Source: a virus | DNA length: 28,391 nt | Virus record (IMG/VR): IMGVR_UViG_3300023179_000402 | Location: 1-28,391 of that record | Direction: 5' to 3' (one strand) | Shown: positions 2,156 through 27,484 of the stretch, piece by piece | Layout: the number at the start of each line of letters is the position of its first letter | Position numbering within the stretch: the stretch's first letter is position 1 | Translations under genes and position numbers: made by a program | The notes under the pieces: generated by a model | Told to the model about the DNA's origin: nothing | Databases searched by the model: none | Seen by the model: only the letters and a program-made list of their open reading frames with translations

Positions 2156-2785
2156 ATGAGAGATTTAATTAGAAGAATTTTAAAAGAAGAAGTGGTAGAC
2201 ATCAAAAATTTTACCATTGAGGAGGTGGATTTATCGGATTTTATTTTAAATAGATCGTTAAATGAGGGTAAAACCACAATAAGGGTTTCTGAATCTTTAA
2301 TTAATGATTTAAATCAATATGTACAATCAAAATATAATTGGCCTCCAAATATAAAAAATGAGTGGTGTAGTGACATAAAAGAAAAGGTTTTACCCAAAGA
2401 AAGAATTGTTAAATATTCCTGTAATAAAAAATTTAAACTTAGAGTTTCAAAACATTGGGCAGAAAGACTTTTTAGACCAGATGAACCAGAACACCAATCA
2501 GGAGGTAAATTATCTAATTTAAAAATTTTATATCCTGAAAAATATGAAGGTTTAAATCTTTTTTTTGATTATAAAAACTCAATTAACGACTACCTTAATA
2601 GTTCCTCAGATTGGGCACCAATAGAAACAAAAAATTTTTTACTTAGTTTAGGAAATTATCATGAAATTGTATCAATCAGAAAAGAAGGTAAGGGATATTA
2701 TGATGTAGAATTTATAACACAAATAAAGGGTGAAAAGTTTTTTAATACTGATGAATTAAAAAAAGCCATTCGTTTATTTTTATAA
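2156..2785 (+). CDS. Hypothetical protein with RRILKEE leader
   Basis: A 209-residue protein, the first plus-strand gene of the window. I chose the ATG at 2156 over one nine codons upstream because it gives MRDLIRRILKEE, a leader like the (L)TES-D-L-x-R-I-V-R-R type at 17154 and 17405, ending in L-K-E at a possible prohead-protease site. The body holds KHWAERLFRPDEPEHQSGGK and a C-terminal segment ending in a hydrophobic IRLFL. I recognise no family. It is followed by a strong hairpin terminator. It stands alone, divergent from the tiny gene at 1961-2071 and convergent with the ncRNA candidate. Confidence 0.85.
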   Translation: MRDLIRRILKEEVVDIKNFTIEEVDLSDFILNRSLNEGKTTIRVSESLINDLNQYVQSKYNWPPNIKNEWCSDIKEKVLPKERIVKYSCNKKFKLRVSKHWAERLFRPDEPEHQSGGKLSNLKILYPEKYEGLNLFFDYKNSINDYLNSSSDWAPIETKNFLLSLGNYHEIVSIRKEGKGYYDVEFITQIKGEKFFNTDELKKAIRLFL

Positions 2786-2790
2786 CAAAA

Positions 2791-2816
2791 AAAAAGGACG
2801 GGTTACCGTCCTTTTT
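2791..2816. terminator. Bidirectional terminator between the leader gene and the ncRNA candidate
   Basis: AAAAAGGACGG pairs with CCGTCCTTTTT around a 4-base loop. On the plus strand it follows the stop at 2785 by 5 nt and ends in five T's; on the minus strand it ends in a run of nine T's and would terminate the RNA starting near 2996. Both convergent transcripts appear to share it. Confidence 0.9.
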
Positions 2817-2996
2817 AACTTCATCTCGTTAAGTTTACGCCCATTCAGCTATGTATGGGGAAGCTCATGATCACCACATTTCTGTGTATTCCGGGGATCT
2901 CCCTTCTTTTTCAATCACCCCTCCTAACCCGTGAGTTAAGAGGTGAACTCCTTTTCTATACTTGGGAGCCCAAAAACAAGTAGTTGTTAATTCAAC
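2791..2996 (-). ncRNA. Candidate structured non-coding RNA (about 205 nt)
   Basis: This stretch holds no open frame longer than about 27 codons on either strand, is clearly richer in G and C than its surroundings, and reads on the minus strand from a consensus Bacteroidota promoter (3001-3031) to a strong terminator (2791-2816). Hairpins visible: a perfect 9-bp stem with a 6-base loop (2920-2928 with 2935-2943); CACA-GAAA-TGTG, a GNRA-capped stem (2875-2886); TTGG-GCTC-CCAA (2962-2973); CCCAT/ATGGG (2840-2844 with 2855-2859); AACTT/AAGTT (2817-2821 with 2831-2835). I cannot assign it to a known class; it is not a tRNA and I see no group I or group II intron core. It could be a regulatory or packaged RNA. 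A 27-codon plus-strand frame at 2851 is the main rival reading. Confidence 0.6.
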
Positions 2997-3000
2997 AATA

Positions 3001-3031
3001 CAAAGATACAAACTTTTTTCTAATAACCAAA
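3001..3031 (-). promoter_or_regulatory. Bacteroidota-type promoter of the ncRNA candidate (TTTG-N19-TATCTTTG)
   Basis: TTTG (3031-3028), a 19-nt spacer and TATCTTTG (3008-3001) on the minus strand match the Bacteroidota housekeeping consensus in sequence and spacing. Its upstream half lies inside the 3' end of the tiny gene at 3020-3160. A start about 5 nt past the -7 element would fall near 2996. Confidence 0.8.
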
Positions 3032-3160
3032 CTTTTTCTTGTGTTTTTCTTTACGGGAATATTCTTTTTTACTTTTTTGAACGATAGGTCTCGTCGCCGC
3101 CCATATTTCTTGGATCGTTACTTCTATTTTCCTTAACTTGTTTTGTGTTGTTGTTTCCAT
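3020..3160 (-). CDS. Tiny basic protein, IQEIW-ATRP family (copy B)
   Basis: A 46-residue frame with the core VTIQEIWAATRPIVQKSKK and a basic tail YSRKEKHKKKFGY, paralogous to the 36-residue protein at 1961-2071. It carries about ten extra residues at the N-terminus. Its first 92 bases overlap the end of a small lipoprotein gene in another frame. Codon differences from copy A, with protein conserved, argue that this frame is translated. Its 3' end contains the -33 part of the ncRNA promoter. Function unknown. Confidence 0.7.
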   Translation of the reverse strand: METTTQNKLRKIEVTIQEIWAATRPIVQKSKKEYSRKEKHKKKFGY

Positions 3161-26578: not shown

Positions 26579-26610
26579 CAAATATACTAAAAAATTATGA
26601 TTATGACAAG
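26579..26610 (-). promoter_or_regulatory. Bacteroidota-type promoter of the kinase gene (CTTG-N20-TATATTTG)
   Basis: TATATTTG (26586-26579) is an exact -7 element; CTTG (26610-26607) is one base from TTTG at the right spacing of 20. It overlaps the first codons of the divergent homing endonuclease gene, and would start the kinase mRNA near 26574, about 30 nt before its ATG. Confidence 0.65.
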
Positions 26611-27484
26611 TTTTAAAAGAAATTGCCCAAAATGTAATTGTGAAATAACTTACAAGAGTAAGTATTCGTTGGTTAATGCAAATAAAAAAAATAGTAAATG
26701 TAAAAGTTGTGGATTAAAGGAAATAATGACAGATGAAATTAAAAAAAGAATGTCTGAAAGAGTTAAAGGTGAAAATAATCCTATATTTGGTAAAACTGGT
26801 AACTTAAACCCTTTTTTTGGTAAAAAACATACAGAAGAAACCAAAAAAAGGATGATTGATGGTCGTGATTATAGTGTTTATAAAACAGAAGAATTTAGAA
26901 AAAAAATATCTAATTTATCAAAAGGTAATAATAATCCGATGTATGGTAAATCTGTTTATGATGTCTGGGTTGAAAAGTATGGGAAAGAGATTGCCGATGA
27001 AAAAATGGTAGAATATAAGAAAAAACAATCATTAAATAGTAGTGGTGAAAATAACCCTATGTATGGAAAACCGGCACCAATAAACGCCGGTAATGGAATT
27101 TGTGGTTGGTATAAAGATTGGTTTTTTAGAAGTTTATTAGAATTGAGTTATATGATATTTGTTATTGAAAGGTTTAATTTTGATTGGGAATCTGGAGAAA
27201 GTGAAAAATACAAAATAAGTTATTCTATTGATGGTAAGAATAAAAACTATTTTCCTGATTTTGTTTTAAATAAAAAATATATTATTGAATGTAAACCAAA
27301 AAAATTAACACAGACCAGTACTAACAAAATTAAATTTGAGTTCGCTAAAAAATATTGTAAGGAAAATGGTTTTATATTTAAAACAAGGGATATACCAAAA
27401 ATAGAAAAAGAAAATTTAATTGAAATGATAAATAATGGGTTAGTCATATTAACTAACAAGTGGAAAAATAAAATTAAGCTTTAA
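26597..27484 (+). CDS. Homing endonuclease with zinc ribbon and NUMOD3-like repeats
   Basis: A 295-residue protein (293 if the second ATG at 26603 is used). Residues 10-38 hold a zinc ribbon (CPKC ... CKSC). Then come NUMOD3-type DNA-binding repeats: GENNPIFGK, GNLNPFFGKKHTEETKKRM, GNNNPMYGK and GENNPMYGK. The C-terminal 120 residues look like a PD-(D/E)XK nuclease: Glu172 in RSLLELSYM, Asp211 in NYFPDFVL and Glu221-x-Lys223 in YIIECKPKK. This resembles free-standing phage homing endonucleases. It is one of two or three plus-strand genes and clearly separate from the minus-strand operons. Its 3' end overlaps the next minus-strand gene by 11 bases, and its 5' end overlaps a promoter of the broken kinase. 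Confidence 0.88.
   Translation: MIMTSFKRNCPKCNCEITYKSKYSLVNANKKNSKCKSCGLKEIMTDEIKKRMSERVKGENNPIFGKTGNLNPFFGKKHTEETKKRMIDGRDYSVYKTEEFRKKISNLSKGNNNPMYGKSVYDVWVEKYGKEIADEKMVEYKKKQSLNSSGENNPMYGKPAPINAGNGICGWYKDWFFRSLLELSYMIFVIERFNFDWESGESEKYKISYSIDGKNKNYFPDFVLNKKYIIECKPKKLTQTSTNKIKFEFAKKYCKENGFIFKTRDIPKIEKENLIEMINNGLVILTNKWKNKIKL

Follow-up and report, generated by a model that had tools for sequence, protein, structure and literature searches.

A pseudoknotted RNA gene in T4-like giant Bacteroidetes phages, very probably the founder of a new non-coding RNA family

The DNA studied here is a viral record of 28,391 bases (IMG/VR IMGVR_UViG_3300023179_000402), and this whole stretch is called the window. 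On its minus strand lies a gene for a structured RNA, which faces a protein gene at its 3' end and follows a tiny gene (3020-3160) that is read in the same direction. The features at the locus are as follows.

2787-2996, minus strand: structured RNA gene of about 210 nt, recognised from homologs and covariation
3028-3031, minus strand: promoter -33 element TTTG, read from the sequence, with a 19-nt spacing to the -7 box
3001-3008, minus strand: promoter -7 element TATCTTTG (Bacteroidetes TAHHTTTG), assigned by its position relative to the RNA start
2791-2816, minus strand: intrinsic terminator hairpin, an 11-bp stem and a T run, found by sequence scan; terminators are kept in homologs
2156-2785, plus strand: convergent gene for a 209-residue protein with a weakly RelE-like predicted fold, linked to the RNA in 11 of the 11 viral contigs that carry the gene

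A stand-alone structured RNA gene had been proposed at this place in an earlier note made from the sequence, and the promoter, the terminator, the covarying homologs and the lack of a conserved reading frame all bear this out. The raised G+C content that it described is seen at 2801-3000, where it is 0.42, most nearby segments having about 0.22-0.28, and the strong terminator was found at 2816-2791, where a T run comes after the 11-bp stem. Of the borders given, the convergent gene exists, as the 209-residue gene on the plus strand, and the tiny gene turned out to be codirectional and upstream. The note had further placed a full promoter at 3001-3031; a promoter is indeed present, but judged by its sequence it is of the Bacteroidetes sigma-ABfr type and not of the sigma-70 type, and a sigma-70 scan listed nothing at 3001-3031. 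It reads TTTG-N19-TATCTTTG, with TTTG at 3031-3028 and TATCTTTG at 3008-3001. With G2996 assigned as +1, the -7 box lies exactly at -12 to -5, the position of the Flavobacterium promoter consensus TAHHTTTG (PMC6847099). The box takes this position in seven of the eight phage loci tested (the window and six of seven others), and in L155 it is offset to -19 under the assigned RNA start. Promoter and terminator are both kept across the phages. Regulation in cis of the next gene was rejected for the window, since that gene is convergent and the terminator intervenes.

Some other elements of the surroundings may be recorded here. The tiny basic gene (METTTQNKLRKIEVTIQEIWAATRPIVQKSKKEYSRKEKHKK-like) has two diverged copies, at 1970-2075 and 3020-3160 (both minus), which flank the protein-RNA unit; in contig L003 a copy directly abuts a DUF932 gene, and in L002 a homing-endonuclease-like frame is found at the corresponding place by DUF932. 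In contigs L082-L085 the far side of the protein gene is occupied by another small-RNA-like gene, distinct from the first (about 2760-2975, minus, in L083), with its own TATCTTTG box and terminator and a fold z of -1.9; it may contain pseudoknots. A near-identical repeat of about 100 bases occurs in the window at 1-115 and at about 786-880, the latter in the 3' part of the gene at 770-1123. Many proteins of the window (e.g. those starting at 2156, 4831, 5385, 5951 and 17163) share an N-terminal motif of the forms MKIIITESQYKxLLE, MKRIIRLTESDLxRIVRRV and MKxLIRxILxE, which resembles a T4-type head-targeting or protease-cleaved leader, and we infer that these proteins may be packaged. The gene at 26597-27484 (plus), with NUMOD3 and a TnsA-like nuclease, is probably a homing endonuclease.

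That the region encodes a small peptide, on either strand, is exceedingly improbable. Open frames do exist in the window, of 42 codons on the plus strand (2855-2983) and of 46 codons from a TTG on the minus strand (2871-3011), which corrects the earlier statement that no frame exceeds about 27 codons; the cores of both are open in the Flavobacteriales locus L102, and the minus core also in L083. However, neither frame is conserved in the homologs. In L125 a one-base deletion shifts the minus frame, which is interrupted by stops in L136 and absent from the L132/L135 group, and the plus frame, whose conservation had been named as a possible objection to an RNA gene, is cut in L125. Furthermore, the sequence changes follow base pairing.

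Since the folding energy is just moderately better than that of shuffled sequences (z -2.3 for the minus strand, with one of 200 shuffles equally good, and -2.7 for the plus strand) and does not tell the strand, it is weak evidence by itself, and relatives were therefore sought; the comparative evidence is decisive. The RNA was found in 12 other viral contigs, some with two copies, and in three Flavobacteriales genomes, so that with the window the viral carriers are 13 (L082-L085, L125, L132-L136, L151 and L155 being the others). The first four, L082-L085, were reached via the convergent gene at 2156-2785, and are 86% identical to the window in the RNA and 66% in the protein; L125, L136, L132-L135, L151 and L155 were added by DNA patterns and a protein profile, and L132-L134 have two units in tandem. 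An exact 26-base pattern matched one Flavobacteriales metagenome-assembled genome (MAG), in which the covariance model then found two tandem units, and G166 and G414, which belong to that order too, each carry a single unit. Overall the model placed the RNA in 2 of 399 genomes sampled from the order and 3 of 240 from the family, two samples that overlap, with one doubtful match besides; G412 was set aside as a doubtful carrier (E 0.08).

Neither the RNA nor the 209-residue protein had a BLAST match among 50,697 phage records. The first viral relatives, found via the DUF932 gene, do not have the RNA there, and nine records of 94-322 kb with DUF932 had no match whatever. Three stretches with the pattern GGGTTAGGAGGGGTGA were discarded, since R1 matched nothing in their loci at E up to 10, as was L126, a pattern match that is not a homolog. 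An anti-Shine-Dalgarno or RegB-substrate role was also dropped, because relatives do not retain the window's anti-Shine-Dalgarno-like CACCUCUU or its GGAG motifs. In Rfam 15 no family matched the window or L102 at gathering scores, in agreement with the earlier remark that no RNA class fits, and relaxing the limit to E 10 yielded nothing beyond chance-level matches, which mostly cover the terminator hairpin.

The fold that emerges from the homologs comprises four hairpins and a three-way element, the latter placed between two H-type pseudoknots. After the 5' hairpin the order is pseudoknot 1, P3, the three-way element (P4 closing P5 and P6), pseudoknot 2 and P8.

2983-2996, minus strand: 5' hairpin GUUG/CAAC; AUUA/UAAU in L083 and GUUA/UAAC in L136, weak or absent elsewhere
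2945-2981, minus strand: pseudoknot 1, with S1 ACUUG:CAAGU, a U-rich loop, S2 GGGCUCC:GGAGUUC and an A-rich loop; in alignment A7, S2 is 94% and S1 84% paired
2920-2943, minus strand: P3, hairpin of 9 bp; eight of nine pairs change on both sides in homologs
2867-2918, minus strand: P4, closing stem of the three-way element that encloses P5 and P6; 100% paired in alignments A7 and A6
2893-2903, minus strand: P5, hairpin GGG:CCC, the weakest helix, imperfect in L125
2875-2886, minus strand: P6, hairpin CACA-GAAA-UGUG; loops UAAC or UUAG in relatives
2840-2865, minus strand: pseudoknot 2, with K1 AGCU:AGCU interleaved with K2 CCCAU:AUGGG; 99.1% paired in alignment A8
2817-2835, minus strand: P8, hairpin, 100% paired, with three pairs changed on both sides

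In A7, five homologs aligned without structure, 96.7% of the cells of a 48-pair model including both pseudoknots are paired and the covariation score is 0.51; 22 pairs are changed on both sides against 9.5 +/- 2.1 in shuffles. When the partners were slid by 1-3 columns, the paired cells fell to 38-49% and the doubly changed pairs to 2-4. RNAalifold, unaided, gives the same nested helices. P4, P6 and pseudoknot 2 are 100% paired in eight sequences (A6), and three pairs of P4 are changed on both sides in A7 and likewise three in A6. Pseudoknot 2 retains its 99.1% in 13 distinct sequences (A8), which were aligned with a model from which the K1 helix was absent. The homologs show strong two-sided covariation, seen in 5, 8 and 13 distinct sequences; these are few, counts from shuffles do not equal probabilities, and part of the structure was read from these very sequences. 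Pseudoknot 1 was recovered by a strict geometry search in 8 of 11 RNAs, few or no shuffles scoring equally high, and needs a bulge or mismatch in L125, L148 and the second MAG copy; it is also seen in a hand annotation of eight RNAs, and its support is less formal than that of pseudoknot 2. Its first loop, U-rich, and its last, A-rich, seem to resemble those of triple-helix pseudoknots. The hairpins described earlier are present, including the perfect 9-bp stem at 2920-2943 and the GNRA-capped stem at 2875-2886, a 4-bp stem under a GAAA loop, but the list of hairpins had missed the two pseudoknots. Taken together, 2787-2996 (minus) is almost certainly an independent gene for a non-coding RNA, belonging to T4-like giant phages of Bacteroidetes and founding a new RNA family, one that has no Rfam relative and two pseudoknots, is kept across very divergent phages and also occurs in bacterial genomes. 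What is new is the RNA family and not a proven mechanism.

We give about an even chance to the reading that such an RNA works in trans, as a rigid ligand of a protein. One possible target would be a host translation or RNA-decay factor, for which the RNA would be a decoy or inhibitor independently of the neighbouring gene. The design, trans-acting and with its own promoter, agrees with this, as do the largely invariant unpaired stretches GAAUAC, GAAAAAGA and UGGU and the existence of the RNA without the protein gene; however, the constant place of the RNA beside the protein gene in viral contigs and the copies in bacterial genomes are left unexplained, and we consider such a decoy unlikely.

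The protein gene is the more constant companion. Regulation, decoying of a host RNA-binding factor and packaging had been offered as roles in the earlier note; the conserved linkage points first to the neighbouring protein. In all 11 viral contigs that have it (the window, L082-L085, L125 and L132-L136) the RNA follows directly behind its stop, tail to tail, and the protein homologs are 36-66% identical to the window copy. The pair occurs in three differing neighbourhoods, namely with DUF932 and the tiny gene (the window, L136), with an RpoD-like sigma gene (L083, L125) and with a DNA polymerase (L132, L135), and this constant pairing in varied surroundings suggests that it travels as one unit. 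The protein itself was not detected in L151, L155, G001, G166 or G414, and therefore the RNA can stand alone.

No fitting Pfam, PHROG, NCBIfam or PADLOC family was found for the 209-residue protein. For two AlphaFold models (mean pLDDT 75 and 79), RelE, HigB, YoeB and ParE toxins fill most of the top rows of the fold comparison at Z up to 4.2, the best RelE reaching Z 4.0 and 4.2 over 74-75 residues at an rmsd of about 3. The closest PDB match in Foldseek is also a RelE, at E 0.02-0.05 and none below 0.02. ToxN-type toxins are not among the matches listed by the fold search, an absence that excludes nothing. Among matches in a viral library, rank 4 is named 'site-specific RNA endonuclease', which we take to be the product name of T4 RegB. 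Residues H100, R104, R107, E110 and K191 are invariant and, as a suggestive hint, would be compatible with ribonuclease activity. These predicted models make a RelE-fold RNase a weak lead rather than a finding.

Genes for sigma factors form a second group of neighbours. They were located at 4146-4631 in L125, 5663-6463 in L083, 6200-6634 in L151 and 4270-4635 in L155, which represent two unrelated settings among the phages. In L125, 43 bp separate the RNA gene from a preceding RpoD-like sigma gene; in L083 such a gene is near, and in L151 and L155 the RNA gene is convergent with a gp55-like late-sigma gene. These positions would fit an RNA with a 6S-like role, which would bind the host's RNA polymerase or a sigma factor (of phage or host) and modulate transcription during infection, the RelE-like linkage being secondary. 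Like 6S RNA, including the flavobacterial and Bacteroidales forms in Rfam, the RNA is free-standing and about 200 nt long. Unlike 6S RNA, it has two pseudoknots and no single long bulged rod, no Rfam 6S model matches it, and no sigma gene adjoins it in the window, L136, L132 or L135; a 6S-like role is accordingly quite unlikely.

In the Flavobacteriales MAG (L102, 1077-11347), the two tandem copies are preceded by a type I restriction locus that has HsdM, HsdS and HsdR and a GmrSD-like nuclease gene. This setting would suit a counter-defence or immunity RNA that mimics an RNA antitoxin or other defence RNA, the host copies being the original or a captured antidote, and a phage mimicking ToxI RNA is known (PMC3475682). 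Against it, no toxin gene was recognised directly beside the bacterial copies, such copies are as rare as the above genome counts indicate, and the MAG copy nearest the phage form is without a promoter box and may be a relic. We regard this explanation as rather improbable.

Because a possible RNase is what most constantly accompanies the RNA, the likeliest single mechanism is that the RNA restrains or guides the neighbouring protein. A host-type sigma factor would transcribe the RNA from its own promoter; the transcript would end at its own terminator, fold into the pseudoknots and hairpins and bind protein in trans. The 209-residue protein is the best single candidate partner, and we propose, tentatively, that the RNA restrains or directs this putative RelE-fold-like RNase as its antidote or regulator. 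Copies without the protein gene, in other phages and host genomes, would serve as stand-alone protection. Several points argue against an antidote. In L151, L155 and the three bacterial genomes the RNA is present but no copy of the protein was detected, so that the RNA need not serve it; the convergent arrangement of the genes differs from that of known RNA antitoxin operons; sigma genes adjoin or lie near the RNA in several phages, which would fit a transcription role; and the RelE likeness is weak, its catalysis putative. The explanation as a whole, an RNA gene whose product is a trans-acting regulator or antidote of its neighbour, is the best available, and we place it somewhat short of an even chance. 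A wider scenario, in which T4-like phages hold a RelE-fold RNase in check with a separately transcribed double-pseudoknot RNA, and hosts or competing phages captured the antidote alone as immunity (e.g. in a restriction island), is distinctly unlikely. The conserved, uncharacterised protein partner makes the function of the RNA directly testable.

Among known systems, the closest parallels are type III toxin-antitoxin systems (ToxIN, CptIN, TenpIN) and the AbiF non-coding RNA, where a pseudoknotted RNA is likewise linked to a protein, here possibly an RNase, and copies can be tandem. RNA antitoxins that bind their toxin often have pseudoknots (PMC5086642), and the AbiF-system RNA also neutralises its toxin in trans (PMC12373285); in our RNA both pseudoknots are backed by two-sided changes. 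In type III systems, tandem repeats of 34-50 nt lie upstream in the toxin operon with a terminator in between (PMC5086642, PMC12373285), whereas here the genes are convergent with separate promoters, so that gene order and repeat form both differ, and the RNA consists of one unit of about 200 nt, doubled in L132-L134. It also occurs alone, and no ToxN or AbiF protein was detectable; for ToxN/AbiQ, Pfam, NCBIfam and PADLOC gave no match to the 209-residue protein, and the fold comparison lists RelE-like toxins instead.

The small stable RNAs rnaC and rnaD of T4 likewise come from a T4-like phage; unlike the present gene, they sit in a tRNA cluster, and the window has no tRNA. Scanned with model R2 to a limit of E 10, the T4 segment 69000-74500 gave no match.

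RegB is a phage RNase with a RelE fold, and the predicted model of the neighbouring protein resembles the fold of such RNases (RegB, RelE, YoeB), weakly, at Z up to 4.2. No sequence similarity between these RNases and the 209-residue protein was found, and for RegB no RNA partner is described in PMC3014915. That review of T4 raises the possibility of an anti-RegB partner encoded by T4 itself (PMC3014915), and the locus described here is a candidate for a phage-encoded partner of a RelE-like phage RNase of this kind.
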